Below, one piece after another: positions 27,067 through 45,961 of a stretch of 64,000 nt of DNA. The stretch is from Thermosulfuriphilus ammonigenes (GTDB taxonomy: Bacteria; Desulfobacterota; Thermodesulfobacteria; Thermodesulfobacteriales; ST65): contig NZ_CP048877.1 of NCBI RefSeq assembly GCF_011207455.1, positions 1,976,576-2,040,575 of the forward strand, written 5' to 3'. The position numbers and the translations under genes were made by a program. The notes under the pieces were generated by a model that saw only the letters and a list, made by a program, of their open reading frames with translations, searched no databases and was not told the origin of the DNA. Each line of letters begins with the position of its first letter. Positions within the stretch are counted from its first letter, which is position 1.

Positions 27067-27076
27067 CTTTTTCACC

Positions 27077-29488: not shown

Positions 29489-30783
29489 ATCCTTCCCGTG
29501 GCTCGGGCTCCGGCCCAGCTGTCATCTTTACCGTGCATATGGCAATTAAGGCAGTTAGATACGCCGCCAGCCTGGTGACAAAACATGCACTGCATTTGAA
29601 CATAAGGTCTATCAGAGGCCTTATGATGAATATACTCCCAGCGGTTAGCAGTTGAGGAGATCCCGGCAGCCTTGTCGTCCATATGGCAGGCCCGACACAG
29701 GTAGCCCATGTCCTTGCTGTTAGGATCCGTAATACTTACAGCAACTCCATTTACCTCCCGACGGATAAGAAAGGGATTGGGAGAGCCATGGGGCTCGTGA
29801 CAGTCCAGACAGGAAACTGCAAAACCTATGGATATCCCTATAGGGGCCGATGAATAAGGGGCATTCATACTGATGGCAACAGTAGCCGAGTTTCGGCCGT
29901 GCTTATCCCCCGGACCGCTTTCTCCACCTTCGCTTATCCAGTCTATAGGGCGAAGGTTGCGCCCCAAGGTGGTGCTATAAATGGTATTTGTGGAGTTGTG
30001 ACAATCGGTACAGAAGGTAGCATAATCAGGAAGATTAGAACCATCATAGGTGTTTGTCCCCCCTGGCTCATAACCTGAGGAATAATGAAGAGGGGCCTGA
30101 TATTTTCCGGTAAAGAAGTCGGCCATCTTCTCCCCGGCCCCATCTCCCCAAAGAGTTCCGTGATCAGTTGGGCGTGATACGGCGGTGGCAGCAGACGGGT
30201 TGGTTGGATTAGCCTTGATACGTTTGGCCAGGTGTGGGTTGTGGCAAGCTACACAAGGATTGGACTGATCCGTAAAGAAAGAAAATGTATTTCGTGCAAA
30301 ATTCCAGACATCGTAGAGATTATGGTAGGAAGTTTGATTGAAGGCCTCTAAAATAGTTGTTGGCCCCTGGGTGGTATAACCCCCAAAGGTTTGAGCGTAG
30401 TCATTATTGGTTATGCCTCCGCTTTGCAAAGATGGGGCTCCATGACATGCAAAACAAAAATTGTCATCCTGAAGGTAACTTCCTGTGGTGGCTCCGGTGT
30501 TGAAGAAGTTTCTAAAGAGGTCAAAAGGGAAAGGCCCGGAGTTGGTGGCCCCGTTTATTATTCCATGCTGTTCGTGACAGTGACCACAATTTCCTTGAGA
30601 GTAAGTGGTTGTTCTTTCTGTCCGTTTTACGCCTGTAGAGCTGTTACCGTGGGCAGAATTAAGATAATCTCCGGCAAAGGCTAAAGTGGTTACTAAAAGG
30701 ACCATCGCTCCAGCAACCAAAAAGACTCTAAGCCTAATGCTTAAGCCTTTAGTCTTTTGTTGTATGGCATGCATTACAGCCAT
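29479..30783 (-). CDS. 8-haem c-type cytochrome
   Basis: 434 residues. Signal peptide (VFLVAGAMVLLVTTLAFA), then eight CXXCH: CGHCHEQH, CFACH, CVACHNPH, CTDCH, CLDCHEPHG, CRACH, CMFCH, CLNCH. Several are followed by xPH/xEH, the usual bis-His ligand arrangement. The opening GDYLNSAHGN is typical of secreted cytochromes in anaerobic deltaproteobacteria-like genomes. The start overlaps the OmcS-like gene by 35 bases (or 26 if ATG 30774 is used). Periplasmic or extracellular electron carrier by inference. Confidence 0.92.
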   Translation of the reverse strand: MAVMHAIQQKTKGLSIRLRVFLVAGAMVLLVTTLAFAGDYLNSAHGNSSTGVKRTERTTTYSQGNCGHCHEQHGIINGATNSGPFPFDLFRNFFNTGATTGSYLQDDNFCFACHGAPSLQSGGITNNDYAQTFGGYTTQGPTTILEAFNQTSYHNLYDVWNFARNTFSFFTDQSNPCVACHNPHLAKRIKANPTNPSAATAVSRPTDHGTLWGDGAGEKMADFFTGKYQAPLHYSSGYEPGGTNTYDGSNLPDYATFCTDCHNSTNTIYSTTLGRNLRPIDWISEGGESGPGDKHGRNSATVAISMNAPYSSAPIGISIGFAVSCLDCHEPHGSPNPFLIRREVNGVAVSITDPNSKDMGYLCRACHMDDKAAGISSTANRWEYIHHKASDRPYVQMQCMFCHQAGGVSNCLNCHMHGKDDSWAGARATGRICF

Positions 30784-31798
30784 TTACCGTTGTTCCTCCA
30801 GGCCAGCCCTGGTAGTTCCAGCGCAGGATTTTCTTGTAAGGGGTACCATGGGCTCGATGACAAGAGATACAAGTTACAATGGTGTCGTTGTTAAAGGTTA
30901 CGGTTTGTTTGACACTAGAAACATCTTCGCTTGCCACCGGAGCAATAACCGAATAGGCCCCAGCGGCCGGACCATAGTTTCCTGGATAATTACGATACTC
31001 TGAACCAGCACTGGTGTTGCCAAGGTCATAGTCAGTAGGGTGTCTCAACCATGGAGACCCCCAACTACCACTGCTGATGTTTGCTCCGGCATGAAAATCG
31101 CCATGACACTGACCACACAGAGAACTTATGGTGGTAGAGTCAATGTCCGTTTCTGAGACTCTATCTCGCCCTTTGTACTGATTATGGGCACTACTTGTGG
31201 GCTGATACTCCCAGTCAGAATCTTCCAGCCCAACTATCCCTTTAAGAAAACGGTAGCTCTTCCCTACGGTAGAGCCATCGATAGTGGAGTCGTCAGCGTG
31301 ATGGGCTCCTAAAAGGGCCTCTACATCTCCGGCTACGGTTCGGTCTCCATGGCAGCCATACTGACCGGCGCAGGTGAGCTGTTGACCAAGATCTGTGCCT
31401 CCGGGAGGTGTAGTCCCTAAAGTGGCGTCCACTCCGGCTACGCCAGCAACATTATGGCCGCAGGCGTCGTCGACCCCCACCCAGTAAAAATTGCCACCAG
31501 CTAAGGTATTAGTGCCAGACTCTGTACCTGTATCGCTATAGGTGGGGGCACTGGTAGAAAGGACGTAAGGAACCTTATTTGTCCCCGTATTAATCCCGGT
31601 ATGACAACCAAGGCAGCTGTTGTTTAAAAGGGCTTTATAAGGCCCAGAGCTTCCCCATTGGGTTAAAGTGGTGCCCCCCTGTGAGTAGTGCATGGTATGA
31701 CAATTGGAACAGACCCCGGATACCCGTGCTACTCCAGGGCTATATCCTAAAAGAACAAGACCTAAGAGACTTACAAGAAAGCTCCAGATCTTACCCAA
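30749..31798 (-). CDS. OmcS/OmcE-like filament-type cytochrome (paralogue 1)
   Basis: 349 residues with a signal peptide (FLVSLLGLVLLGYSPGVARV). Haem motifs: CSNCHTMHYS at the mature N-terminus, CLGCH, a CX5CH variant (CAGQYGCHGD), CGQCHGDFH, CISCHRAHG and CNACHTTKD at the very C-terminus. The order, the GHN loop (CGHNVAG), SPWLRHP and CHRAH match the layout of Geobacter OmcS. A block around GAHHADDSTIDGSTVGKSY is shared almost exactly with paralogue 2. It lies between the NHL and 8-haem genes, 1 base after the NHL stop. Predicted extracellular filament subunit; that is inference from the family. Confidence 0.88.
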   Translation of the reverse strand: MGKIWSFLVSLLGLVLLGYSPGVARVSGVCSNCHTMHYSQGGTTLTQWGSSGPYKALLNNSCLGCHTGINTGTNKVPYVLSTSAPTYSDTGTESGTNTLAGGNFYWVGVDDACGHNVAGVAGVDATLGTTPPGGTDLGQQLTCAGQYGCHGDRTVAGDVEALLGAHHADDSTIDGSTVGKSYRFLKGIVGLEDSDWEYQPTSSAHNQYKGRDRVSETDIDSTTISSLCGQCHGDFHAGANISSGSWGSPWLRHPTDYDLGNTSAGSEYRNYPGNYGPAAGAYSVIAPVASEDVSSVKQTVTFNNDTIVTCISCHRAHGTPYKKILRWNYQGWPGGTTVNGCNACHTTKD

Positions 31799-31799
31799 G

Positions 31800-32699
31800 T
31801 TAGTGTCTCCAAATATCTATGCGGCCATTTCCCTCATCAAGCACTAAAAGCTCGCTATCGACAAAAAGTAACTGCCAAGGGTAATTGAGATGGCCGGGAG
31901 TAGCTCCTTCATCGAGAAAGGAGTATCGAAAACGTCCGTTTTTGTCAAAAACAAAAATCTTTTTTAGATAACGATCAAGGATGTAAATATTCATTTGCCT
32001 GTCGATTTCTAGAGCCACAGGAAGTGAAAGTTTGCGATCAGGAGTGACAAAGATTTCCTTTCCTGTTGTTAAATTAATGCCATAGATACGGGCGCTAATA
32101 TTTTCTAACCCCCACAGCCAGTCCCCTTTAATTTTAATATCGAAAAAGCCCCGGAAATCTTTATTTTTGGGCCTTATGGCCCTATTTACCTTGAGGGATC
32201 TGTCAAGCAGAAGAGCCTCTCCGGTAGCTCGATCAAGAACAATTAAGTGCTTCTTCCATACCAGGAGCCGATCAACTAAAACAGTGCGTCCCTGATAGGT
32301 GAGCTGATGCCTTTTTAGACGCTGAGCCTTCAGATCAATGTGGGTGAGGCTATTAAGGGGTCTTTCTACAACCCAAAGACTTCCTGTTTGGTCTCTTACC
32401 ATGGCTAAAGGACCTTTGAGCTGGCCAGCGGCATCAAATTCTTTAAGAGGAGTGCCCTGGCGATCAAAGGAGACGAGACGATTGTTTCCAGTATCACTGA
32501 CATACAAGCGTTGAGTAGTCTGATCATAGTACATGGCTAATGGGTAATGGAAGTGAACACCATTGGCATCCTTCTCCAGCGAGACCTTAAGTTTAAAGGA
32601 GATAGCCTGACTGATAGAAGGAAGACATATTTCCATTCCAAGAGAGATCCCCAGAAAAACAACCCAGTAGATTAATAATTTTTGTGACACTCGAGACAT
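31800..32699 (-). CDS. secreted NHL-repeat beta-propeller protein
   Basis: 299 residues with a signal peptide (LLIYWVVFLGISLGMEICLP). NHL-type blades: RLYVSDTGNNRLVSFDRQG, PLAMVRDQTGSLWVVE, MNIYILDRYLKKIFVFDKNG, LLVLDEGNGRIDIW. ATG 32699 has GGGAGG seven bases upstream and overlaps the 16-haem stop by 28 bases. NHL proteins recur beside extracellular cytochrome genes and may chaperone or bind them; there is no direct evidence here beyond position. Confidence 0.88.
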   Translation of the reverse strand: MSRVSQKLLIYWVVFLGISLGMEICLPSISQAISFKLKVSLEKDANGVHFHYPLAMYYDQTTQRLYVSDTGNNRLVSFDRQGTPLKEFDAAGQLKGPLAMVRDQTGSLWVVERPLNSLTHIDLKAQRLKRHQLTYQGRTVLVDRLLVWKKHLIVLDRATGEALLLDRSLKVNRAIRPKNKDFRGFFDIKIKGDWLWGLENISARIYGINLTTGKEIFVTPDRKLSLPVALEIDRQMNIYILDRYLKKIFVFDKNGRFRYSFLDEGATPGHLNYPWQLLFVDSELLVLDEGNGRIDIWRH

Positions 32700-33841
32700 A
32701 GAGTTGCCTCCCCGCTTAGTCTAAGGTTGTACTTAAAGTTGGTGCCCATTGGATCATGACAGGTAACGCAGGTTACCGGCTGACCATTGCGGGGGTCGAT
32801 GATCTTGTCCCCAACAGGATGAGTGAATTCTCCTTGCGTTTCATGACACCGGACACAGGCAGCATTACCGTCTCCATTGAGCATAGCTGGATGATTTGAA
32901 CCATGGCCCACATGACAGTTGAGGCAGTTACCCCATTGGGGGTGAATGTAAAGGCTGGCCTCTTTTTGACGGTAGGTTTCTGGATGACATTGTTGACATA
33001 ACCGCCCCGGGGCGTCTCTAAGGAGGGCCTCTGTATCGGCCACATGGGGGCTATGGCAGACCAGGCACGGATTCTCCTCAAGCCCTCCTAAAAGGTGGTT
33101 GTGGGTGTGCTCGAAGCTCTTCTTCTGGTCTTCATGGCAGGAAAGGCAAAGATCAGCTCCCTTCTTTTGAGCCTTATGGCAGGTCTGACAGCTCCCTTTT
33201 TCGTAAGGAGGATGTCCTTTTTCCCTTAAGAGCCCTTTTCTATCGCTCCCATGGGGATTGTGACAGGAGAGACAATCCATTTCTCCAGGAGCTTTTCCCT
33301 GATGGGTCTTTGAGAGCTTTGCGGTTTCTTTGTGGCAGGTGAGACAGAGATCTGGTCCAGTCTTTTTAATAAGGCGCCTGTCGTTTGATACATGAGCCTC
33401 ATGACATGAGAGGCACTTCCCCTGAGCAAAAGGGAAATGGGGGTTCTTGAACTTCTGGCGAAGATCCTTGTGGCAATTCAGGCAAATTGTTTTGGCCTCT
33501 TCCTTAAGAAGGTTAGGCTGAGGGGAGGTATGAGCTTCATGGCAGCGAAGACAGGCCCCTTTGGCCACTGGGGGATGAATCACCTCGGCTTGGGTTAAGG
33601 CCTTCTTTAAAGGCTTGTGACAGGTGAAGCAAAGCCCTGGGGCAGGTTCCTTAAGGAGTCCTTTGTAGCGCGAAACATGGGGCAGATGACATCGATCACA
33701 TTCTCCTTTGGTTATCGGTTTATGAATTCGGCCCTGAATAAAGGCCTTTCGAGGATGGCATTTGAAACAGACCTTCTGGGTCTGGGCCCAAGAAAATGGC
33801 CCCCAGAGAATAATCAGAAGCAAAATCCACCAACGTATCAT
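32672..33841 (-). CDS. 16-haem c-type cytochrome
   Basis: 389 residues. Signal peptide (WWILLLIILWGPFSWAQ), then sixteen CXXCH spread evenly over the chain, alternating between a CLxCHEAH/NPHGS type and an LCLxCHK type. This forms roughly 40-residue two-haem units resembling the 26-haem neighbour. Haems 15 and 16 (CVTCHDP, CLECHKN) close the protein. ATG 33841 overlaps the 26-haem stop (ATGA) with GGAGG six bases upstream. No lipobox, so probably periplasmic or secreted. With the 26-haem protein it likely forms an electron wire. Confidence 0.93.
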   Translation of the reverse strand: MIRWWILLLIILWGPFSWAQTQKVCFKCHPRKAFIQGRIHKPITKGECDRCHLPHVSRYKGLLKEPAPGLCFTCHKPLKKALTQAEVIHPPVAKGACLRCHEAHTSPQPNLLKEEAKTICLNCHKDLRQKFKNPHFPFAQGKCLSCHEAHVSNDRRLIKKTGPDLCLTCHKETAKLSKTHQGKAPGEMDCLSCHNPHGSDRKGLLREKGHPPYEKGSCQTCHKAQKKGADLCLSCHEDQKKSFEHTHNHLLGGLEENPCLVCHSPHVADTEALLRDAPGRLCQQCHPETYRQKEASLYIHPQWGNCLNCHVGHGSNHPAMLNGDGNAACVRCHETQGEFTHPVGDKIIDPRNGQPVTCVTCHDPMGTNFKYNLRLSGEATLCLECHKNY

Positions 33842-35778
33842 CGGCCACCTCCGTGACAGGGGAGACAATTCCCTTTTTCAAAGGGAGGATGCTCTACTGG
33901 CCAGAGCATTCGCTCGTCAGGGGCCCCATGGGGATTATGGCAGGTAGTGCATGACTTGGGGGAGGGAGTAATGTCGTTGTGCGCAGAAACAAGGGCCTGA
34001 TCTATCTTATGACAACTAAGACATATTTTGCCTGCCGGGGCCTTAAGTAAGGCTTTACGTGAACCAGCGTGGCTTTGGTGACAGGTGAGGCAACCCTCTT
34101 CCTCTTCTGCCGGAGGATGAGCCACCCCCTGTCGCCAATAGTTAGAGACATCCTGATGGCAAGAAAGACAGAGGTCTTTTAAGTCCTCCCTGAGGTACCA
34201 GGGCTTTTCACCTCCATGGGGACGATGACATTGCTGACAGTTCCCTTTTTCTGCCGGTGGGTGGACAACCGCTTCCCGTCTGACCATTTGTCCTACCTGA
34301 CTGTGGCAGTCAAAACATATGGTGTCCAGAGGGCGTTTGATCTGGAAGGCGTATTCAGCGGCATGAGCATCGTGGCAGGTAAGGCACTGCTTTCGAGCAA
34401 AGGGAGCATGGACTTTCTCTCCTTTGAATTCCTTTTCTAGCCTTTGGTGGCAGGAGAAACACATCTGGTTTGGAGACTCAGGAAGGAGATATTTTGTCTG
34501 GGCGTAATGGGGATCATGACAGTCAGAGCAACGTCCACTAGCAAAAGGGGTATGGAGGCTGAATTTGTTTTCTTCCTTGGCGGTTTTTTGATGACAGGAA
34601 AAGCAAAGCTTTTTTTCCTCTTTTCCTAAAAGATGGGGCTGGGAGGAGTCATGGGGGAGGTGGCAGGTTAAACATTGCCCTTTAGCAGTAGGCCGATGGG
34701 CTATCGGTCCTTTCTTGATCCCCTCATGGCAGGACAGACACAGTTTGCCGGGCTCTTCAGCTATCAAAGACTTTTGCTGTGAGATGTGACCCCGATGGCA
34801 GGCAAGACAATCGCCGTCTTTGACTGGCTTGTGCTCACTTCGGATCTGGCGTCCAGGCTTTTGGACCTTTTGAGTGCTATGGCACTGGGTGCAAAGGGCT
34901 CCCGGAGCTTTAGAGAGAAGTGGGGACCAGGCGCTGCCATGGGGACCATGACAGGTAAGGCACTTTCCCCGGTCATAGGGGAGGTGGTGGCTGGCGCCAG
35001 TCTCTTTGGGATGGCAACTTAGGCATCCCTCTTGAGGGTCTCCCTTAAGCCCTAAGGGATGTTCTCCCCGACCGATATGACAAGAATTACACTCTCCCTT
35101 GGTAACAGGCTGATGTATCGAAGGACGCAGGAGAGATTTTTGCCCAGAGCTATGGGGATCATGGCATTGAATACAAGCTTGGCTAATATCAAAGTTAAAG
35201 TGAGCCTTTTTAAGGATTGTCTTATCCGTATGACAGGAGAGACAGAGAGAAGAGGATTTTTCTTGGAGAAGATCTGGCTGATCTGAGCCGTGAGGTTGGT
35301 GACAACGAAGACAACCTTCCTCTAAGGCCTGGTGCTTATTAACCCCTTTTAAGACATCTTGGTGACATTCGAGACACTGACTATCAACGGGTTTTTTAAG
35401 GAGTCCTTTCTGGGGAGCTGAATGAGGCAGATGACAGAGAAAACAGCCCCCTTTTTGGGCTGGCGGGTGGACTGTCTGGCGGCGGAGCTCTTCTAAAGTC
35501 TTCTGGTGACAGCGAAGACAAAGTTGAGGTGGATCACTCTTTAAAAAGGCCCCTCCCACCAGACCGTGGGGGCGATGACAACCATTACACTGTCCACTAG
35601 CTACCGGTTGATGGATTACCGGTCCTTCTTTAGTAACCAGGGTCTTGTAGTCTGGATGACACTCAAGACAGGTTTTTTTGGCTCTGGGAGCCTGGGGTTG
35701 AGGACTTTGAACGCAGCCAAAGATTAGAGGGAAGAAAAATACTAGCCCTGCCAGCCACTTAATGGACGTGGGCTTCAT
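33838..35778 (-). CDS. 26-haem c-type cytochrome lipoprotein
   Basis: 646 residues, 26 CXXCH by direct count. Signal peptide with lipobox (FFFPLIFGC, Cys22), so a lipidated outer-membrane protein. The body is about thirteen units of the form HxP..KGxC..CHxPHGS ... LCLSCH, each carrying two haems 18-25 residues apart; the xPH histidines are the expected distal ligands. ATG 35778 has GGAGG six bases upstream and overlaps the prolyl-isomerase stop by 20 bases. Large cytochromes of this size occur in the omcS neighbourhood of Geobacter (from memory). It probably links periplasm and cell surface. Confidence 0.93.
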   Translation of the reverse strand: MKPTSIKWLAGLVFFFPLIFGCVQSPQPQAPRAKKTCLECHPDYKTLVTKEGPVIHQPVASGQCNGCHRPHGLVGGAFLKSDPPQLCLRCHQKTLEELRRQTVHPPAQKGGCFLCHLPHSAPQKGLLKKPVDSQCLECHQDVLKGVNKHQALEEGCLRCHQPHGSDQPDLLQEKSSSLCLSCHTDKTILKKAHFNFDISQACIQCHDPHSSGQKSLLRPSIHQPVTKGECNSCHIGRGEHPLGLKGDPQEGCLSCHPKETGASHHLPYDRGKCLTCHGPHGSAWSPLLSKAPGALCTQCHSTQKVQKPGRQIRSEHKPVKDGDCLACHRGHISQQKSLIAEEPGKLCLSCHEGIKKGPIAHRPTAKGQCLTCHLPHDSSQPHLLGKEEKKLCFSCHQKTAKEENKFSLHTPFASGRCSDCHDPHYAQTKYLLPESPNQMCFSCHQRLEKEFKGEKVHAPFARKQCLTCHDAHAAEYAFQIKRPLDTICFDCHSQVGQMVRREAVVHPPAEKGNCQQCHRPHGGEKPWYLREDLKDLCLSCHQDVSNYWRQGVAHPPAEEEEGCLTCHQSHAGSRKALLKAPAGKICLSCHKIDQALVSAHNDITPSPKSCTTCHNPHGAPDERMLWPVEHPPFEKGNCLPCHGGGR

Positions 35779-37396
35779 CGGTAGCCTCCAGTTCTTTTTT
35801 GAGCCTTCGCCAGGTCTTCTGATGGATTTTAATCTGTGATTTTTCCCGAAGCTTGGCCAGATATTCCCTTTTGAGCTCCTCAAAACGCCTCTGGGCCAAG
35901 GTCTTCATGATGTTTTTCTTGACCATCTCAAAAGGATGAACCTCTTCGGGATTTTTCTTAAGGAGTTTAACTATGGCATACCACTCTTCACCAAAGGGAC
36001 TCTTGAACTTAATAATCGGAGAGATCCGTCCTTCTTCCATTTTCTCTAAAACTTCCCTCATCTCTGGAACAAGGCTTTCCAGAGGCCTTCTTTCTGGTCT
36101 GGCACCATGAAAATCAACCTCTTTGGCCACTTCAAAGAAGTCTTCTCCCCTTTGGATGCGTTGATAGACCTTCCGGGCCAGTTGTTCGTCTTGGGTCTTG
36201 ATTACGGCCATCTCTACCTGGGCTGGGCGAGTAAAGTCCTTCTTATGTTCTTCATAATAGCGTCGGGCATCTTCTTCGGTCACTTTAACGTTGGGCCAGA
36301 TAATCTTTTCTTCCAACTCTCTGACTAAACGTTGCCGGCGATAGAAGTCATATACCTCCTTGAGAGGGGGCCGTTTTTCATAGTGGCGGTTAATGGCCTC
36401 CCAGGTAGTAAGGGTCTGGGCGATAGAGTCGTTGATTATCCGCTGTTTAATTTGGTTTAGCTCCTGGGAAGAAGGGGTCTTGCCGGCCCTGAGCTTGGCC
36501 TCCTTTTTAAGGAGTTTATGTAAATCCGCCCCGGTGAGGCTTTTGTCGGCTATTTTAAGGACTGTTGCCCCGGCGAGATCTTTAGGTGGCTCCTCAAGGC
36601 CAATTTGGTTTAAGACCTCTTGGTTTATTTCTACAGGATATTTTTCCCGGAGGCGTTTAATAAGTTCAGCCGTGAGCCTTTGTGATTCTCTCTTTTTGAC
36701 TCTTGTGGCTACGTTGTTGCGAACTTTCTTGAAGTCTTCCTCCTCCGGTCCTCTTTTCTCTTCAACATAGAGAATGTAGAAGCGATTGTTTAACTTCAGG
36801 GGGCCAAGGATCTCTCCCGGTGAGGCCGAAAGGACCTTATCTTTTATAACTTCAGGGATGGTTATCGGACGCTCCCAGCCAAAATCTCGAGCCTTTCCTT
36901 CGGGGGATAGTTTCTCAAAAAGGGTTTCAAAGTCCTTAGGGGTCTTAATTTTTTCTTTCCAGGCCTGGACCTCATTTTCGTCATTGGTAATTAAAGCCTT
37001 TATCTTCAGCCGAGGGGTATAATTTTTTACATACTCGGGCCATAAGGTTTTGCGACTCAAATCAATACGACTGTCAACTTCGTCATATTTTAGCTGCATC
37101 AGGGAGCGAACCTGGATGAAGATATCAAGCTTTCGTCGATAGGATGGTTCCTGGTCAAGCCCTAAAGCCAGGGCCTCATCGGCCATAAGATTCCAGTCTA
37201 TGAAAGGATCGGGGGTTTCAGGGACTTTCATCCCCGGATCCTTCCAATACTTCCACCATCGTTTGAAATCGTCAGTCGTGTACTTTTGACCATTTATCTC
37301 TACTAGATAATCCCGCCCCCAGAAGCCCCAAGCTGTTCCGGAGATGAATAGAAAGAAAAGAATTAATGACTTAATGAATATCTGGTACCGTTTCAC
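35759..37396 (-). CDS. secreted parvulin-type peptidyl-prolyl isomerase
   Basis: 545 residues. Signal peptide (FIKSLILFFLFISGTAWGFW), a helical SurA/PpiD-like N-domain, a parvulin-like domain at about 135-225 (LITNDENEVQ, DFGWERPITIPEVI, LGPLKLNNRFYILYVEEK) and a second, more diverged one at about 395-495 (VEMAVIKTQDEQLARKVYQ, ISPIIKFKSPFGEEWYAIV), then a basic C-terminal tail. Likely folds periplasmic or outer-membrane clients, here the cytochromes or the barrel. GTG start directly after the TAA of the upstream lipoprotein gene; GGAGG lies ten bases upstream. Isomerase activity is not assured in either domain. Confidence 0.87.
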   Translation of the reverse strand: MKRYQIFIKSLILFFLFISGTAWGFWGRDYLVEINGQKYTTDDFKRWWKYWKDPGMKVPETPDPFIDWNLMADEALALGLDQEPSYRRKLDIFIQVRSLMQLKYDEVDSRIDLSRKTLWPEYVKNYTPRLKIKALITNDENEVQAWKEKIKTPKDFETLFEKLSPEGKARDFGWERPITIPEVIKDKVLSASPGEILGPLKLNNRFYILYVEEKRGPEEEDFKKVRNNVATRVKKRESQRLTAELIKRLREKYPVEINQEVLNQIGLEEPPKDLAGATVLKIADKSLTGADLHKLLKKEAKLRAGKTPSSQELNQIKQRIINDSIAQTLTTWEAINRHYEKRPPLKEVYDFYRRQRLVRELEEKIIWPNVKVTEEDARRYYEEHKKDFTRPAQVEMAVIKTQDEQLARKVYQRIQRGEDFFEVAKEVDFHGARPERRPLESLVPEMREVLEKMEEGRISPIIKFKSPFGEEWYAIVKLLKKNPEEVHPFEMVKKNIMKTLAQRRFEELKREYLAKLREKSQIKIHQKTWRRLKKELEATDEAHVH

Positions 37397-37981
37397 TTAT
37401 TTACAACCTCCCAGACCCCTTTTTTTCCAATTGTCAACGATCTCTGAGACCATCTTTTGGGCCAGACCAGTTAAAGTCCAGATGCGCCCAAAATGTAAAG
37501 CCTTACGGTATTCTTCACCCTCTCGAGAGTGATAAGTACTCCATAGAAGCCGTCCTGTTTTAGCGTCTCTTACCCAGATGTTAAAGGCCAAAGACACATC
37601 ATTTCCTTCTTCTTTGGCCTTAAGAATCTCACCACTTATTACGGCCTGGGCTCCCGTCTTCTCTCCCAGAAGGCGCACCACTCGGGCCGGTGGCTCCTGC
37701 CCGAGCGGACATCTTTCCATAACTAGAAAATGTCTAACAGCCCCTTCTTCGACGACATCGAAGGATCGAGTTTCTACCATTTGGGCAATAAGAACTCGAT
37801 AGACCAAACGGGCTACGGTGGGGTGTTTGGTCTGATTAATGAAGGGAAGAATGGCCACTCGGCAAGGTCTAGCTGAGACTCCCCGGGCCACATCGACCCG
37901 GGGGAGATCCGATCCACAACCCCAAAGTCCAATGAGTAGCAGAAAGAGGCCCAGAAATCTCCAAGTAACATTAGAAATCAT
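37397..37981 (-). CDS. CsgG/GNA1162-like lipoprotein A
   Basis: 194 residues with a lipobox signal peptide (LGLFLLLIGLWGC). The mature part has the domain seen also in the two genes upstream: VAILPFINQTKH at the first strand, FDVVEEGAVRHFL, KTGAQAVISGEIL, WVRDAKTGRLLWST and a C-terminal amphipathic helix. This resembles the CsgG / GNA1162 / LpoB fold of outer-membrane lipoproteins. ATG 37981 is chosen so that the lipobox falls at normal distance. It overlaps the 494-residue gene's stop by 11 bases and ends directly at the isomerase start. Confidence 0.78.
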   Translation of the reverse strand: MISNVTWRFLGLFLLLIGLWGCGSDLPRVDVARGVSARPCRVAILPFINQTKHPTVARLVYRVLIAQMVETRSFDVVEEGAVRHFLVMERCPLGQEPPARVVRLLGEKTGAQAVISGEILKAKEEGNDVSLAFNIWVRDAKTGRLLWSTYHSREGEEYRKALHFGRIWTLTGLAQKMVSEIVDNWKKRGLGGCK

Positions 37982-39455
37982 CCACCCACTTTTTCTCCAC
38001 TTTCTTCTTTTCTTCCGCAGCACGCATGATGATGGGCTTTAGTTCCTCATTTCGGACTCTTCGCCGATTTCCAAGAATATCCCGGACCTCTAAGCTATAA
38101 AGGAGGCCTTCTTGTTTGGGAATAACTAAGCTCTTAGGAGGCCTTTGTCCCTCATACTCCCCAACTAGATTTCCTTCTTTATCCCAAAGTTCAAGGCGCC
38201 ACTCGGATACCGGCACCGGATGGGCTCCGATGTTCAGTTTAATAACCATCTTCTCTGAAAAGGCTCGGGCTTGAAGGTTTACTGGTGGAGCACCTTTGAC
38301 GACAATGAGATCACGTTCGGCAATATAGGTGTTTCCAGCCTGATCCCAAACTTTAAGGGAGACTCGATAACGGCCATCGGGTATTCGGTGGCCACTTTGA
38401 TCAGCCCCCCGCCAAGTAAAGGAGGGGGGAAGGCGTCCTGGCCGTTCTTCCTTTACTACCAGCTGGCCTGTTTCTACCGAAGAGATTTGGAGTAGCCAAC
38501 GAGAGATAGGTTCTGGACGCTCCAGTACCGGAACAAGAACAATATGGCGTTTAAAGGCCACACCTTGGGGTAGAGCTTCTCCTTTAAGGGTCCTTATCTC
38601 CAGCTTTGGAGGAGTATTGTCCACCATAAAAGAGGAAAGGAAGAGTCTTTTTTCCATATGCCATGGTCTTCCCCAGCGCAAAAGGAGATTTACCGGATAA
38701 CGTCCTTCCTTACGGGGAGCTGTCCACCAGGCAATGTAAAGATCTCCTTTCTTAATGGTGGGAACCCGACGTCCACTAGGAAGGAGGAAATAAACCTCCT
38801 CTGGAGGATCTCCAGAGATGTCCAGACGTACAGCGCACTCTATACGTTTACCCCCTCTTACGTGACGAGGACGGACAAAGACATCAGCGATTTCAAAAAT
38901 AGGCGGTTGGGCTAGGCTTCGCTCCAGATCTTGGGGAAGACTGGCTAAAATTTTCTTTATTCCTTCAGAGAGGAGACTCTGGAAGTCATGTTTCCCAAGG
39001 CCCAGAAGACTGACTTCTGCCAGCCCTGATAGAGATACGGTCTTGCTCCATATGAGTTGATAGTCTCTGGCCCTCAGAATCCTTAAGGAGAGACCTAAAG
39101 CCGGTTCATCTGGATCAAGTTCGGTTACTGTGCCTAGAAGGATGAGATCTACCCCCAGCTCTCTTGAGGCCCGAGCCGCTGTTAGTCTTTCGGCCCATCC
39201 TGTCCAGCGGATACGGTTTTTGGCCATAAAATTGAGGACCTTGTCTGGATGTACTACTTGAAAACCGCGGTCCTCTAGGGCCTGAGCCACAGCCTCGGAG
39301 AGATCCAGGTTGACCCCGTTGATATCTTTGGAGAGGTCCTCAAAAGGAAAAACAGCAATCTGTCCCCTCGTCGGAAAGGCGGAAATAAGGAGTAAGAAAA
39401 TGCCTAATCCAAGAACTTTGCCAAAGATTGTCAAAAATTTTTTTAATCTAAACAT
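37971..39455 (-). CDS. secreted CsgG-like protein with Ig-like C-terminal domains
   Basis: 494 residues. A signal peptide (GLGIFLLLISAFPTRGQ) is followed by a CsgG/TolB-N-like domain (IAVFPFEDLSKDI, GFQVVHPDKVLNFM, LGVDLILLGTV, RDYQLIWSKTV; to about 180). The rest is beta-rich modules including FlgD-Ig-like sequence (RIPDGRYRVSLKVWDQAGN) and a basic C-terminal tail (EEKKKVEKKWVDDF). It has no lipobox cysteine, unlike its two neighbours. Possibly a periplasmic or secreted partner of the lipoproteins. No enzyme motif. Confidence 0.72.
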   Translation of the reverse strand: MFRLKKFLTIFGKVLGLGIFLLLISAFPTRGQIAVFPFEDLSKDINGVNLDLSEAVAQALEDRGFQVVHPDKVLNFMAKNRIRWTGWAERLTAARASRELGVDLILLGTVTELDPDEPALGLSLRILRARDYQLIWSKTVSLSGLAEVSLLGLGKHDFQSLLSEGIKKILASLPQDLERSLAQPPIFEIADVFVRPRHVRGGKRIECAVRLDISGDPPEEVYFLLPSGRRVPTIKKGDLYIAWWTAPRKEGRYPVNLLLRWGRPWHMEKRLFLSSFMVDNTPPKLEIRTLKGEALPQGVAFKRHIVLVPVLERPEPISRWLLQISSVETGQLVVKEERPGRLPPSFTWRGADQSGHRIPDGRYRVSLKVWDQAGNTYIAERDLIVVKGAPPVNLQARAFSEKMVIKLNIGAHPVPVSEWRLELWDKEGNLVGEYEGQRPPKSLVIPKQEGLLYSLEVRDILGNRRRVRNEELKPIIMRAAEEKKKVEKKWVDDF

Positions 39456-39477
39456 CTAGCCCCCTTCCGGCAGGCCA

Positions 39478-40053
39478 TCACTTTAAAGTCTTCAGCAACC
39501 TTTCTACTAGATCAAAGCTTACTTGAGTAAAATCTTTAGGACGTAAACCAAAAAGCCTACCACTAGTACTATAACCACTCGCTGTGCCGCTGGCCTGCCA
39601 GATAACCTCCCCCGAAGCCCCATCTATTAACCGCAGGGTAAGGGCTACTACCGGGTAGGTATAGCTTCCATCTCTATTTTCTTCATAAGCATCCACGGCG
39701 CCAACCACTAGGGCCTGGACTCCTAGTTTTTTGGCTATCCGACGCAGGGTACTTTTGTCCAGGGAGACCTTCTCCCCGACCATCTGTTCTTCCAGAACTA
39801 CATCTACCATGGCCTTATCTACTACGTCAAAGAGTCCGAGGGAGAGGATCTCTGTCATGGTAATGTTACGGAGCCGTTCGGCGGCGTAGTTGTCTTGGGA
39901 ATTGTTTTCAAATTTGAGTACCGCCACCTTTTTAATATAAGTTGTATCAACCCCCTCTCGCAGATAAGATTCCATCATTTGATGGGTCCCGCAGGACGCA
40001 ATTAGAATAAGCAGGTTAATTAATAAAACGGCAATTTTGCTAGAGCCCTTCAT
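39478..40053 (-). CDS. CsgG/GNA1162-like lipoprotein B
   Basis: 191 residues with a lipobox signal peptide (LLINLLILIASCG). The domain reads VAVLKFENNSQDNYAAERL, LGLFDVVDKAMVDVVLEEQ, LGVQALVVGAVDAY, DGASGEVIWQASGTASG and a C-terminal helix (VSFDLVERLLKTL). Of the three it is the closest to CsgG-type curli-secretion lipoproteins, but shorter than CsgG and without an obvious transmembrane hairpin pair. ATG 40053 follows GGAGG by seven bases. It is the second gene of the minus-strand operon, 20 bases after the barrel. Confidence 0.8.
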   Translation of the reverse strand: MKGSSKIAVLLINLLILIASCGTHQMMESYLREGVDTTYIKKVAVLKFENNSQDNYAAERLRNITMTEILSLGLFDVVDKAMVDVVLEEQMVGEKVSLDKSTLRRIAKKLGVQALVVGAVDAYEENRDGSYTYPVVALTLRLIDGASGEVIWQASGTASGYSTSGRLFGLRPKDFTQVSFDLVERLLKTLK

Positions 40054-40073
40054 AAACATTCCTCCCCAATCTT

Positions 40074-42014
40074 CTAAAAAGAGGCCGTGAGGTTGACCAT
40101 CCAGGTCCACTGAGTTTGACCATCACTTTTACTCCAAGAATAGTTGGTCTTAAGGGAGAGATAGCGGCTAATAGTCCAGGAGAGAAAGGTCGAATATTGA
40201 TCACTTTTGCTACCATTGCGGGATCCAGAATACTGAAGATTAAACTGAACCTTCGGGCTTACGGCCCACCAGAGTGAATAGTTGGAGGAGAAAGTCTTAT
40301 CCTCCGTGTCCGACCAGGAGACCGCTTCGGCAGCTCTGATAAGCAGCACATCCGAGGCCCGCCAGCTGACATCAAGAGAGAGATTATGGCTGGTGGCTTG
40401 GCTGCTGGTCGCTCCAGTGGTTTCACTCCTGGTATAGTTGTAAAGGCTATTGATAGTAAGCGATGGACGAATTCTGGCGATAATATTGAGCCTTGAAGTC
40501 AGCCCAGTAGTATCAGTGTCTGATTCGTAACTATGAGATAGGGTATAAGTAACGTCCCACCGAAGATCAAGGTCAGGGTATAGCTTGGCGGAGGTAGAAA
40601 GGGTTAAGCTGTCAGAGCTACTCTGTTTTGCCCCTCCTACTTCGGAGATGGAGTGGGTTAGTCCGGTTGAGAGAGAAAGGGTTTCCAGAATATCAGAGAT
40701 AATGGTGGCTGAAGCGTTGGTAATCTTTGTCTCCGGCTGTCCCTCTACCTTGTTGCTACTCTGGGAAAGGTTGGCCTGAGTCTGAAGATACTTATTTATA
40801 AACCAGGATCCTGCCAGGGTATGAACCGTGTTTTCCGCCTGATTGCCTGGTTCAGGGATATTTTTATCATAAGCTAGATAATAAGATAGAGATATATCCT
40901 CATTTAAAGCATAAGTCAGGGAAAGATCAGTGCGATAGGTTTTAGATTTTTGGGTGTAGCTACTAGAATAGATAAATAAATAGGCCCTAACCTCGGGATC
41001 ATTAAGGATAGGAGCGGGAGAGGGGACATCCTTAACTACTAATTTAATATATCGCCCCCGGGAGAAAGTAGAGGAGAAGCGATAGGGAAGGGAGATATTT
41101 GAGGCTATAAGATTCCAGGTGGATTTATCCGAACTCCAGTAGATGTCCCACCGGACAGTGGTGGGGACAGGCTCAAGTATGGTCCCGTCAGTATAGAAAT
41201 AGATGCTGTCTAGGGACTGGGTGCCAAGGTCGATAATGATCTCTTGATTTTTGGTTAGGGAATCACCGTTGGCTGGTTTACTTGGCTCCCAACTAATACT
41301 AATCGTAAGTTCAAATTCGGAGTAACCACCTCCACTTATTTTCCCCTTCCAGTCGGTCTTAGTAAAGCTAAATTGCTGGCCAAAATTGTAAGATAGCTTA
41401 CGCCATCGGCCAGTGTATTGGCCCTTGAGAAAGTGAGATTCGGTGTCTGTGGTGGATTCCTTAACGCGGTCATCACTGGTAGAACCTCTATAGTCATAAA
41501 ATAGGTTAATACCTCGCCAGAGGCGATTGGCGCTAAAACCCCAATGGTCAGATGTGCTGTCTATCCTTCTGGGCTGGCTGTCATCCTGCTGGGTGGAACT
41601 TCCATAATAAAAGCGCAAAGAAGTTTCTTTATAAGTGGTGGAAAGGTTAGCATCCCAGGAGCGGGAGGAAAAATTGGGGCTGTCCGAGTTACGTCTTTCA
41701 GTATCGGTAGCACTGAGGTTAAAGTTAAAAAGATCGTTGCGGATTCCTAAGTAGGCGGTAGGAGTAAAAAGCTCTCTTCTCTGGGATCCCCGTTCGGTCC
41801 GATTGTAGCGAATGGTAGCCCCGGTGTTAATGGCCCGGGTAGCCTGTGAAGATAGGCTTAAGGAGTAAGTCTGTTGGAGCTGGCTTTCCTGATCTGAATA
41901 CTCCCAATAGCGCCAGTCAGTAGAAAAGTTGTAGGCCTTCACCCCTCCCCCTGTCTGGAGCCCAAAGAATAAAAAAAAAGCAATTATCAGCCTCCCCCAT
42001 GCTGATCCATTCAT
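40074..42014 (-). CDS. outer-membrane beta-barrel with discoidin-like insert
   Basis: 646 residues. Signal peptide (LIIAFFLFFGLQTGGGVKA), then amphipathic beta-strands rich in Ser/Thr/Tyr/Trp throughout, ending in Phe (LTASF), as in outer-membrane barrels. About residues 245-350 break the pattern and read as an F5/8-type C (discoidin) or galactose-binding-like domain (EIIIDLGTQSLDSIYFYTDG, TVRWDIYWSSDKSTWNLIAS, RGRYIKLVVKD). Counting alternating strands suggests roughly 20 or more. First gene of the operon: the likely porin sheath of an electron conduit, by position and fold, not by close homology. Confidence 0.8.
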   Translation of the reverse strand: MNGSAWGRLIIAFFLFFGLQTGGGVKAYNFSTDWRYWEYSDQESQLQQTYSLSLSSQATRAINTGATIRYNRTERGSQRRELFTPTAYLGIRNDLFNFNLSATDTERRNSDSPNFSSRSWDANLSTTYKETSLRFYYGSSTQQDDSQPRRIDSTSDHWGFSANRLWRGINLFYDYRGSTSDDRVKESTTDTESHFLKGQYTGRWRKLSYNFGQQFSFTKTDWKGKISGGGYSEFELTISISWEPSKPANGDSLTKNQEIIIDLGTQSLDSIYFYTDGTILEPVPTTVRWDIYWSSDKSTWNLIASNISLPYRFSSTFSRGRYIKLVVKDVPSPAPILNDPEVRAYLFIYSSSYTQKSKTYRTDLSLTYALNEDISLSYYLAYDKNIPEPGNQAENTVHTLAGSWFINKYLQTQANLSQSSNKVEGQPETKITNASATIISDILETLSLSTGLTHSISEVGGAKQSSSDSLTLSTSAKLYPDLDLRWDVTYTLSHSYESDTDTTGLTSRLNIIARIRPSLTINSLYNYTRSETTGATSSQATSHNLSLDVSWRASDVLLIRAAEAVSWSDTEDKTFSSNYSLWWAVSPKVQFNLQYSGSRNGSKSDQYSTFLSWTISRYLSLKTNYSWSKSDGQTQWTWMVNLTASF

Positions 42015-42579
42015 TGGCCCTGTTAAATATATTTATTTGTGCCTATTTTCAACTTGTTTTCTGATCCTTTCTTTAAGGATCTTCAGGGATTCCTAAAACT
42101 ATTTTAGGTTTTTACCGAAAAGTGAAAATTTTAAAAATGAGTTGACAGTCATCCGATAATTAGTCTAGAGAGTAAACAATTCTTGAGGGCTATCTAAATT
42201 TTTAACCGGAGGACTGGCCAAGAGGGAGAAAAGGTTTTATATATTAAAAAGAGCGCTAAAAAGATAAGTTATACAAAAGATGCCAGGTTTTTTAAAAAGG
42301 TCTAAGATAAGACAGATTTAGTTAAAAGTTGGCTTGAAGAGGTCAAGTGGAAGAAAGAGTTTTGGTTAGATCTAGAAAATTAGCAAGATAGTAAATAAAT
42401 AGATTGGTTTTTCTTAATTCTTAGAAGAAGGAGGTGAGAGAGGTTAGTGTAGCTGTTTAAATCCTTAAAAAGGAGAATTGATTTTTACTAAAAGAATAGG
42501 TAGCCTAATGAAGTTAAATTCATTTACCAGTTTTTTTAAAAATTTTAAAAAGGAGAAAACTTTAAAGAAAGGGGGAGCT
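42015..42579. promoter_or_regulatory. AT-rich divergent control region of the two cytochrome operons
   Basis: 565 bases between the barrel gene (minus) and the first plus-strand cytochrome. Markedly AT-rich compared with its flanks. Must drive both operons. A perfect TTGACA sits at 42142-42147, but no good -10 follows at 16-18 bases. GAAGGAGGTGAG at about 42427 and AAAAAGGAG at 42466 and 42549 look like ribosome binding sites, but no convincing leader ORF starts after them. A long 5' leader for the plus-strand operon is possible. Confidence 0.45.
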
Positions 42580-43707
42580 ATGAGAAAGGGTTTTATCTTT
42601 TCAGTAATTTTGGCCTTGGTCTTGGTTTTGCCGGGGCTCTCTCAGGCCCGAGTACAGGGCCCGTGTGCTGACTGTCACACCATGCATAACTCTCAGAACG
42701 GTGCGGCGGTGGTCTCTGGAGGGCCTTATCGGGCCTTGACAAAGGGGGATTGTGTTGGTTGCCATACGGGCGGTCCAAACACTGGGACCAATAACATTCC
42801 CTATGTAAATTTCACCTCGGCACCTACCTATGGCAATTTTGGTATCGAGAGCGGTACTAACACCTTGGCTGGTGGTAACTTCTACTGGGTGGCCCAGGGC
42901 AGTGACGCCAAGGGGCATAATGTCTCTGGTATCGCCTCTCAAGATGGAGCCATCGGTCTTACTCCTCCTGGTTGGAATAATACTGATTTTCAGAAAAATG
43001 GGGCTGTGGCCAATGGTGAGGCTACATGGAGCCAGCAGCTCACCTGTGCTGGAACCTATGGTTGTCATGGTGACCACCAGTATACTGACGACTTTAAGGC
43101 TATCTCCGGGGCTCATCATACTGACGATTCCACTATTGATGGTTCTACTGTAGGTAAGAGCTTTCGCTTCCTCAAAGGTATTAAGGGCATTGAAGACTCT
43201 GATTGGGAGTATCAGCCCACCTCCACCGCCCACAATCAGTACTATGCCGTGGACCGAATTGGTAATTTTGTAGATGATCCTTCCGCTGCTGATCCGGCCA
43301 GCATCAACTATCTTTGTGCCGAATGTCATGGAAACTTCCACAGTGGTACGGGAAATACCGCCGGTGCTGATGATGAGGGCAGCACGGTTGGGTCACCCTG
43401 GATTCGTCATCCCTCTGATTTTGACATGAACAATGTCTCCAGTAAGGAGTATGGCCAGTATCCTGGGCCGTTCGATACTGCTGGGACCTACTGGCCCGGG
43501 GCTCCGGTTGGCTCCACGGATCTCTCTGGTGTCAAGAGCACGGTGCTTCAGGCCGCCGATGATGCCATTGTCCTCTGTATTTCCTGTCACCGAGCCCACG
43601 GTACCCCCAATGATGACCTGCTGCGTTGGGATTACACCCAGTGTAACGCTTCAAGCGGCTCTTCTGGAAATTGTGGTTGCTACGCCTGTCATACCACCAA
43701 ATACTAA
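42580..43707 (+). CDS. OmcS/OmcE-like filament-type cytochrome (paralogue 2)
   Basis: 375 residues. Signal peptide (GFIFSVILALVLVLPGLSQA), then CADCHTMHNS, CVGCH, the CX5CH variant CAGTYGCHGD, CAECHGNFH, CISCHRAHG and a C-terminal CYACHTTKY. Bis-His candidates KGHNV, GAHHTDDS and SPWIRHP are in the same order as OmcS. Very close to paralogue 1 over IDGSTVGKSFRFLKGI and DSDWEYQPTS. ATG 42580 follows GGGGGAG; an upstream in-frame extension is basic and lacks a good ribosome binding site. First gene of the plus-strand operon and followed by a hairpin, suggesting high expression. Predicted secreted nanowire subunit. Confidence 0.9.
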   Translation: MRKGFIFSVILALVLVLPGLSQARVQGPCADCHTMHNSQNGAAVVSGGPYRALTKGDCVGCHTGGPNTGTNNIPYVNFTSAPTYGNFGIESGTNTLAGGNFYWVAQGSDAKGHNVSGIASQDGAIGLTPPGWNNTDFQKNGAVANGEATWSQQLTCAGTYGCHGDHQYTDDFKAISGAHHTDDSTIDGSTVGKSFRFLKGIKGIEDSDWEYQPTSTAHNQYYAVDRIGNFVDDPSAADPASINYLCAECHGNFHSGTGNTAGADDEGSTVGSPWIRHPSDFDMNNVSSKEYGQYPGPFDTAGTYWPGAPVGSTDLSGVKSTVLQAADDAIVLCISCHRAHGTPNDDLLRWDYTQCNASSGSSGNCGCYACHTTKY

Positions 43708-43757: not shown

Positions 43758-43782
43758 ATTGTTATTGGGCAGGAGGGGGAGG

Positions 43783-44910
43783 ATGGAGACAAAACTTAAG
43801 ATTTCGATAGGGGCAGTTGTCTTTTTGTGGGTGTGGGTGTCTTTGGTGGGGGTAGGGCAGGCCCGGGTCTCTGGGGTCTGCTCAAACTGTCATACCATGC
43901 ATAATTCTCAAAATGGCCAGGCCATTAAAACTTCTGGGCCTAATCCCTACCTTTTAGATCCAGTGTCAAGTTTTAGTGATCCTTGCGTTGGTTGTCATTC
44001 AAACACTACAGCAGAGACCATTGTTACTGTGGGAAGCACCCGAATCCCCATTGTGGTCAATCTTCAGGAGCCAACCTATCCTAGCGATGGTAGCTCAACT
44101 GGGGTTCTTGCCGGAGGTAACTTTTACTGGCTGATCACCAATGGTGATGTCTATGGTCACAACGTTCTGGCCATAGACGGCGTGAGTCAAGACGCCAATT
44201 TATCGCAGGCTCCGGGTATGCCTGACTCAGCCTCTGGGGGTAGCTGTGCGGGGTGTCATAGACAGGTGAGCAGATGTGAGAGCTGCCACAAGCCGGCTCA
44301 CCACGCTGACGATTCAGGGCCGGTTGTTGGAGAGTCTGGTGGCTGGTATCGCTTTCTTAATTCGTCGGAGCACGGCAGCTCGGCCACAGGGGTGATTGGC
44401 ATTGAGGATTCTGACTGGGAGCAGACGGTAAGTGCCACGGATCACAATGAATACAACGGCACCAACAATATCTATGGCAACGATGACAATTCCATGAGCA
44501 ACTACTGTGCGGGTTGCCACTTCAAGTTCCATGGAGTCAATTATGTAGATACGGATGGTAATGTTTTAGCTGATAACCATTCGCCCTGGTTCAGGCACCC
44601 CAACCATATTGCTCTGCCCAATGATCCCAACAAAGAGTATTATTACTACAACAATCCTGGTGGCACTGGCCCGGGCGACTACAATCCCATTGCACCTGTG
44701 GCCAGGGATCCGAACACCCTTTCCGGGATGACGGGGCCGACCAACATTGTCACCCCGGGTAGTGATCAGGTGATGTGTCTTTCCTGTCATAGACCTCACG
44801 GCAGCCCCTATCCGGATATGCTGCGCTGGGATTACCTTAATGCCTGTATAGCCGGCACCAGCAATGCGAACTGTGGCTGTTTTGTCTGCCATACCACCAA
44901 AGGACAGTAA
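43783..44910 (+). CDS. OmcS/OmcE-like filament-type cytochrome (paralogue 3, 7 haems)
   Basis: 375 residues. Signal peptide (ISIGAVVFLWVWVSLVGVGQA), then CSNCHTMHNS, CVGCH, CAGCH, CESCH, CAGCHFKFH, CLSCHRPHG and C-terminal CFVCHTTKG: seven canonical motifs. Where the other paralogues have one CX5CH, this one has two CXXCH 11 residues apart (cysteine to cysteine). YGHNV, PAHHADDS and SPWFRHP are conserved. The two tyrosine-rich stretches near 285-290 (EYYYYNN) are unique to it. ATG 43783 follows AGGAGGGGGAGG. Likely a filament subunit or an accessory tip/base subunit; inference. Confidence 0.9.
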   Translation: METKLKISIGAVVFLWVWVSLVGVGQARVSGVCSNCHTMHNSQNGQAIKTSGPNPYLLDPVSSFSDPCVGCHSNTTAETIVTVGSTRIPIVVNLQEPTYPSDGSSTGVLAGGNFYWLITNGDVYGHNVLAIDGVSQDANLSQAPGMPDSASGGSCAGCHRQVSRCESCHKPAHHADDSGPVVGESGGWYRFLNSSEHGSSATGVIGIEDSDWEQTVSATDHNEYNGTNNIYGNDDNSMSNYCAGCHFKFHGVNYVDTDGNVLADNHSPWFRHPNHIALPNDPNKEYYYYNNPGGTGPGDYNPIAPVARDPNTLSGMTGPTNIVTPGSDQVMCLSCHRPHGSPYPDMLRWDYLNACIAGTSNANCGCFVCHTTKGQ

Positions 44911-44918
44911 CGAAGATT

Positions 44919-44967
44919 TGAGGCCCAGGAGGGAGTTATTGTTGGCCCTCCTGGGCCTCATTTTTTT
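44919..44967 (+). terminator. terminator-like hairpin that spans an RBS and start codon
   Basis: Perfect 15-bp stem TGAGGCCCAGGAGGG (44919-44933), 12-base loop, CCCTCCTGGGCCTCA (44946-44960), followed by seven T (44961-44967). This is a textbook intrinsic terminator for the cytochrome ending at 44910. The left arm contains AGGAGG, the only good ribosome binding site for the NHL gene, and the loop contains that gene's TTG start. It probably attenuates the downstream genes and may hide their ribosome binding site. Confidence 0.8.
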
Positions 44968-45961
44968 ATTAATAGGTAGCTCCTCATGGGCCAAAAAACC
45001 CTCGGTCACCGTGGCCGAGATTAAAGTAGTAGCCATCCTTAAGACTGACGATTTAGGTAAGCCCCTTTCTTATCCTTCGGCCCTTGCTTATGATCCAGTC
45101 CGCGATGAGCTTTATGTTACAGATGCCTCTCGTTCCAAGATAGTTATCTACAGTCCTGATCTTTTCCCTGTTTTCTCTATAGGACCTGGTCGGGGGGTAG
45201 TGGCTCCCACCGGATTGGCTCTCGATTCCGAGGGTAATCTGTACGTCTGCCAGAATCCTACTGAGAAGGAACCACGAGCTCGAATTTCGGTCTTCAATGC
45301 GGCGGCTATTAAGGTTAGGGATATTTATTTTGAGGGGTTTGAAGGGGCCGACTCTTTTTACCCCAAATCTGTAGCTATTGGTATCCATGGCCAAATTTAT
45401 GTGACTGGTTTGGACTTTGCCGGGGTGGTGGTCCTCGACCGAGAGGGTAAGTTTCTTCATCTTCTATCTCCTAAGGACTCGGTTTCGGCTAACCTCCCTC
45501 CCAAAAAGGCCGTAATTACTGATGTCTTTATAGATGAAAAAGGGCGAATTTATTTGGTAAGTGAAGAAATGGGCCGATTATACGTCTATGATTCCCAGGA
45601 GCGCTACCTTTTTAAGGCTGGTCAAAAAGGTGGCAGTTCTGGTAAACTCAGTCGTCCTCGGGGGGTAGCTGCCGACCCGGAGCGGGGGCTTATCTACGTG
45701 GTGGACTATATGCGCCATATGGGGCAGGCCTTTCGCTACGATGATGGTCGCTTACTTTTTGAATTCGGCGGGCGAGGTTGGAGTCCAGGGTGGTTTAATT
45801 ATCCGACCGATATTGTGGTTGACAAGTATGGCCGAATTTATGTAGCAGATCTATTTAATCACCGGGTGCAGGTAGTGGAGCTGGTTCAGAAGGGCATGGG
45901 TAGTGTCCCCTTGAACACTACACCTTCTTTTATAACGCCCTTACAGAAGCTTAAGAAATGA
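44939..45961 (+). CDS. secreted NHL-repeat beta-propeller protein
   Basis: 340 residues from TTG 44939, which has AGGAGG (44927-44932) six bases upstream and gives a clean signal peptide (MLALLGLIFLLIGSSSWA). An ATG at 44864 in the same frame would put about 25 polar residues first and overlap the cytochrome, so it is less likely. NHL blades: PSALAYDPVRDELYVTDA, GLALDSEGNLYVCQN, SVAIGIHGQIYVTG, RGVAADPERGLIYVVD, TDIVVDKYGRIYVADLFNHR. The signal-peptide codons form the right arm and T run of a terminator-like hairpin. Partner of the filament cytochromes by position. Confidence 0.86.
   Translation: MLALLGLIFLLIGSSSWAKKPSVTVAEIKVVAILKTDDLGKPLSYPSALAYDPVRDELYVTDASRSKIVIYSPDLFPVFSIGPGRGVVAPTGLALDSEGNLYVCQNPTEKEPRARISVFNAAAIKVRDIYFEGFEGADSFYPKSVAIGIHGQIYVTGLDFAGVVVLDREGKFLHLLSPKDSVSANLPPKKAVITDVFIDEKGRIYLVSEEMGRLYVYDSQERYLFKAGQKGGSSGKLSRPRGVAADPERGLIYVVDYMRHMGQAFRYDDGRLLFEFGGRGWSPGWFNYPTDIVVDKYGRIYVADLFNHRVQVVELVQKGMGSVPLNTTPSFITPLQKLKK

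Follow-up and report, generated by a model that had tools for sequence, protein, structure and literature searches.

The three tandem genes F, G and X of Thermosulfuriphilus ammonigenes encode PelC/CsgG-like proteins and belong to a real and conserved export or assembly module, known in outline and seen here as a new architectural variant. Probably the trio is a part of the osc/oet machine that folds OmcS-family cytochromes and exports them as extracellular filaments. The export hypothesis is supported by gene context and is not new, having already been published for Geobacter.

The trio and its gene neighbourhood

The window (the whole stretch of DNA analysed, 64,000 nucleotides) has a minus-strand run of genes, overlapping or with short gaps between them, which starts with the 646-aa barrel E at 42014 and goes on in the order E, F, G, X, H, I, J, NHL, an OmcS-family hexaheme, an 8-heme cytochrome and the propeller D. 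Divergent from the run are two further OmcS-family cytochromes and an NHL propeller. The letters OscE, OscF and OscG were assigned here by gene order, and the features are as follows.

40074..42014, minus strand: E, predicted outer-membrane beta-barrel of 646 aa in the OscE / OetI position (amphipathic strands)
39478..40110, minus strand: F, PelC/CsgG-fold lipoprotein in the OscF position (Pfam CsgG, lipobox, model)
37971..39455, minus strand: G, periplasmic, with a PelC-like N-domain and C-terminal Ig-like domains, corresponding to the N-half of OscG (494 aa)
37397..38023, minus strand: X, third PelC-like lipoprotein, corresponding to the C-half of the fused Geobacter OscG (208 aa)
35759..37396, minus strand: H, SurA/PpiC-type peptidyl-prolyl isomerase of 545 aa, OscH (Rotamase_2 E=1e-22, Rotamase E=2e-8)
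33838..35883, minus strand: I, 26-heme cytochrome and predicted lipoprotein, OscI, GSU2495-type (26 CXXCH, alignment A4, lipobox)
32672..33868, minus strand: J, 16-heme cytochrome, OscJ (16 CXXCH, alignment A5)
31800..32699, minus strand: NHL beta-propeller in the position of GSU2493 (NHL E=6e-6; same position in relatives)
30749..31798, minus strand: OmcS-family hexaheme with 5 CXXCH and an invariant CX5CH (hhalign 99.5%, E=1e-22)
29479..30783, minus strand: 8-heme cytochrome (8 CXXCH)
28160..29488, minus strand: D, beta-propeller-like, OscD position in relatives (YncE-like/lactonase propeller, E=4e-5 and 9e-5)
42478..43707, plus strand: divergent OmcS-family hexaheme with 5 CXXCH and CX5CH (alignment A10 against the OmcS profile, E=1e-22)
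43759..44910, plus strand: OmcS-family cytochrome with 7 CXXCH (alignment A9 against the OmcS profile, 99.6%, E=9e-25)
44864..45961, plus strand: NHL beta-propeller (NHL E=4e-22)

The eight-gene set D-E-F-G-H-I-J-NHL is complete between 28160 and 42014 with D displaced, since this gene lies at the far end of the window cluster and adjoins the barrel in most relatives. E is called a barrel because it has no cysteine, ends in a C-terminal Phe and is rich in amphipathic strands, with 23 amphipathic peaks where shuffled sequence gives 10.9 (z 4.4, as against 1.0 or less for the other cluster proteins); no match to it exists in Pfam. At about residues 240-345 of E a stretch (IYFYTD...RYIKLVV), likewise with no Pfam match, resembles by eye a discoidin-like beta-sandwich. 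The 8-heme cytochrome has a 56% identical relative within the L027 cluster. The window cluster ends (26533-28144, minus strand) with genes for a 5-heme cytochrome and a small, putative membrane protein, a pair that stands between G and X in the relatives L024, L025 and L027. Promoter counts are those of shuffled sequence.

All three open reading frames, and all nine motifs quoted from them in an earlier sequence-only reading of this DNA, are present on the minus strand where that reading had placed them. The F frame (40110..39478) has 210 aa when counted from its GTG, and the start is likely to be the ATG at 40053, the coordinate at which the earlier reading ended the trio. Its homology claim also stands, as profile matches and a domain tree put the relatedness of F, G and X beyond chance. 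F scores above the Pfam gathering threshold for CsgG (PF03783; E=1e-7, 31.9 bits, cut-off 20.8) and matches the LpoB profile (E=8e-7). In the same Pfam search neither G nor X has a profile above cut-off or a listed CsgG match, and FlgD_ig falls slightly below cut-off for G (E=7e-6). The F-family profile recovers X (E=4e-18) and also the N-domains of G orthologues, with E values down to 7e-23. The CsgG-likeness claimed for all three proteins is confined in G to the first 180 or so residues, which are followed by Ig-like domains (FlgD_ig, model). Similarly, of the three supposed lipoproteins F (IASC) and X (LWGC) have lipoboxes and G has none; the lipobox Cys of F is invariant in alignments A1 and A2. 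A tree of 83 domains in about 30 clusters gives an F clade (100/100), a G clade (99/94) and X as one clade with weak support (63/5), and because the three groups are separated there they are old paralogues and not the products of a recent tandem duplication. Loci L029, L030 and L031 carry a tandem duplicate of F and so have four PelC-like domains per cluster. A scan of viral contigs gave no match to G.

The sequence-only reading is supported in placing the trio beside OmcS-type cytochromes: those of the conserved cluster were assigned to the OmcS family at hhalign probabilities of 99.5-99.6%, by profile-profile comparison with Geobacter OmcS-type proteins, one of which (a cytochrome in the H2geo locus) matches the OmcS structure 6ef8 at E=5e-98. 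Single-sequence PDB searches with the window hexahemes did not find OmcS, and the family is seen by profile comparison.

Predicted fold of the trio

The F model (pLDDT 80.6) finds its best fold match in PelC, with a Z of 17.6 and an rmsd of 2.2 over 136 residues, and scores lower with GNA1162 (Z 13.2), FlgT (12.9) and CsgG (11.9). Sequence comparison agrees, in that PelC chains are nearest when the F profile is run against PDB sequences (E=3e-9) and no CsgG appears there at E<=1. In the model of the G N-domain the secondary structure elements are ordered as in F; a Foldseek search with the G model is dominated by Ig-like folds and does not inform on the N-domain.

CsgG has two transmembrane beta-hairpins. 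At their position in the F model the strands 133-147, 150-163 and 169-178 are joined by loops of 2 and 5 residues. No match to CsgF was found in the genome, and the nine glycosyltransferase matches to PelF there are all below cut-off. Twelve PelC lipoproteins assemble into a ring at the periplasmic face of PelB, a 16-stranded barrel (PMC12141448). Because PelC is a 12-mer ring on a separate barrel, a collar on the neighbouring 646-aa barrel is the better model for the trio, and E, encoded directly upstream, is a likelier channel than a CsgG-type pore.

Conservation across genomes

The gene order of the window recurs in other genomes of the phylum and in Geobacter, Geotalea, Geomobilimonas and other Desulfuromonadia. 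In the Geobacter MAG H2geo (L032/L035), D-E-F-GX-H-I26-J16-NHL stands next to an OmcS-type cytochrome. G. sulfurreducens itself is absent from the loci returned, its place being taken by Geobacter sp. AOG1, Geotalea and the H2geo MAG. Further loci came from a contig scan with a two-sequence OscJ alignment as query; those of Anaeromyxobacter and Acidobacteria were reached via OscJ only and are poorly resolved with the simple ORF caller used. In Geobacter-type clusters G and X are fused into a single gene; they are separate in the window and in L021, L023-L025, L027, L073, L074 and L076, where G has an extra C-terminal part. The whole cluster is also seen in two MAGs labelled Nitrospira (L044, L064), which could reflect horizontal transfer or a binning error.

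High-tier F, full-length 26-heme I and barrel E have identical distributions, all three being found in one set of 14 among the 118 phylum genomes, spread over 11 families, at tiers (F E<=1e-53, I E<=1e-160, E E<=1e-45) chosen post hoc from the gap between strong and weak matches. Identical F and I sets would arise by chance with a probability of about 2e-18 on the assumption, not fully valid, that the genomes are independent. Of 31 near relatives, 10 carry G, and these are also the 10 that carry I. Apparently the trio is not widespread in genomes lacking extracellular cytochromes, a distribution that the sequence-only reading had named as speaking against it, given that high-tier F and the 26-heme cytochrome go together in this way. 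Distant F-like proteins are common (72 of 118 phylum genomes at E<=1e-6), and at those of the inspected loci that were resolved they belong to a related module without I and J or to a locus with Wza/Wzz-like proteins; the F-like domain alone is therefore no cytochrome marker, and it is the trio within this operon that is one. The related module, seen in L083, L085, L087 and L089 with parts varying by locus, has a single F-like lipoprotein, a prolyl isomerase, an NHL propeller and a thioredoxin-like protein, together with an OscE-like barrel (detected in L083 and L089) and a fusion of a 10-heme cytochrome with a redoxin domain. It adjoins FG-GAP/beta-helix or MopE-type surface proteins.

A proposed route for cytochrome export and its alternatives

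The osc ('nanowire secretion') block of Geobacter is reported as GSU2500-GSU2493 (PMC13194489, PMC12977616). In one of these papers OscH is given a role in folding and OscE/F/G in secretion, citing Shen et al. 2025 (PMC13194489), and in the other the eight-gene block GSU2500-GSU2493 lies downstream of the OmcS-like GSU2501, GSU2495 has 26 hemes, and the H2geo genome is named among carriers of such a neighbourhood (PMC12977616). The secretion mechanism is elsewhere called speculative, PilA pili having been proposed as an alternative (PMC12307469). A literature search found no relevant paper linking CsgG with cytochrome nanowires and, the primary osc paper (Shen et al. 2025) aside, no PelC reading of the cluster.

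In the route proposed here, which takes its links to OmcS folding and secretion from the Geobacter literature, a cytochrome precursor would enter the periplasm and the prolyl isomerase H would aid its folding around its hemes. F and X would be lipid-anchored in the inner leaflet of the outer membrane and G would be soluble with Ig-like arms, and from the likeness to PelC we infer that F, X and G could form a ring, docked on the 646-aa barrel E as a periplasmic collar. A cytochrome subunit, already loaded with heme, would cross outwards via E and stack into the filament, at the base of which the 26-heme I and 16-heme J may supply electrons. The more specific version, in which the three PelC-like paralogues make up one mixed collar on the large barrel and thread heme-loaded subunits outward, is put forward tentatively, as less likely than not. 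Against a collar of this kind, the substrate of PelC is a polysaccharide and not a folded heme protein, and the barrel of PelB has 16 strands. In favour of the module as such, a barrel, one F-like lipoprotein, a prolyl isomerase and an NHL protein also occur together without I and J, near other surface-type proteins.

The same occurrence counts against a reading of the cluster as an electron conduit, in which E would insulate I and/or J across the outer membrane while F, G, X and H serve as conduit assembly factors. To our knowledge conduits have not been described with a lipoprotein collar and a SurA-like isomerase. The conduit reading has on its side that the two large multiheme cytochromes always adjoin the barrel in full clusters, and that OetABI, described by Murali et al. 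as a porin:cytochrome electron conduit, is present in Thermodesulfobacteria (PMC10553843); the osc literature gives secretion rather to E, F and G. We think the conduit reading rather improbable, and conduit and export are in any case compatible and do not exclude each other.

Three further roles concern the trio itself and are all much less probable than a place in the export machine. A CsgG-type outer-membrane pore for cytochrome filaments, which was the proposal of the sequence-only reading, draws on the Pfam match of F and on the common core fold, but is very unlikely given that PelC is nearer in both fold and solved sequence, that the loops of the F model are too short to hold two membrane hairpins, that G has no lipobox, that CsgF is absent and that a dedicated barrel gene is adjacent. 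The LpoB match of F and its fold similarity to FlgT, LpoB and GNA1162 would suit envelope lipoproteins which tune peptidoglycan or brace the envelope at the filament exit; the PelC match is clearly stronger, however, and export and cytochrome genes adjoin the trio in every relative with a full cluster, so that we give this role a slightly smaller chance again. Least probable of all is a service to exopolysaccharide export as for PelC. PelC being the best fold match speaks for it, as do the distant F-like proteins that adjoin Wza/Wzz-like proteins in L082 (named by eye from sequence), but the genome has no PelF above cut-off, no polysaccharide genes were recognised in the cluster, and the trio-bearing clade is tied to the 26-heme and 16-heme cytochromes.

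The exit of cytochrome filaments is still described as unsettled, and a PelC reading names a candidate channel (E) and a candidate collar (F, G, X) and predicts which protein pairs bind. If the trio forms a mixed collar that threads cytochrome subunits outward, PelC-type collars would be a general adaptor for the export of polysaccharides and of cytochrome filaments.

Relation to known systems

The osc cluster of Geobacter sulfurreducens has the same propeller, barrel, F, G, prolyl isomerase, 26-heme and 16-heme cytochromes and NHL protein, with adjacent OmcS-family cytochromes. The OetABI cluster of syntrophic sulfate reducers likewise combines a barrel, large cytochromes and OmcS/OmcX-type cytochromes and seems to be the osc cluster itself; it was read as an electron conduit in a text that mentions neither CsgG nor a prolyl isomerase (PMC10553843). 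With PelC of the PelBC exopolysaccharide exporter the trio shares its fold, size, lipid anchor (the lipoboxes of F and X) and adjacent barrel, and it differs in substrate, in barrel family, in having three paralogues in place of one and in the Ig-extended G. With CsgG it shares the core alpha/beta fold and the Pfam match of F; in contrast to CsgG, the F model has no membrane hairpins, the genome has no CsgF and a separate barrel is present.

Compared with osc, the window has X as a separate lipoprotein and a G ending in Ig-like domains where G and X of Geobacter are fused, and these separate genes may ease purification and dissection relative to the fused Geobacter OscG. The propeller D is on the far side. 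The hexahemes of the window are distantly related to OmcS, and two carry a CX5CH site. This motif (CAG[TQ]YGCHG here) appears in place of the third CXXCH of OmcS at 30749-31798 (minus strand), at 42478-43707 (plus strand) and in relatives, is present in all 7 rows of the hexaheme alignment, and is possibly a non-canonical heme attachment site.
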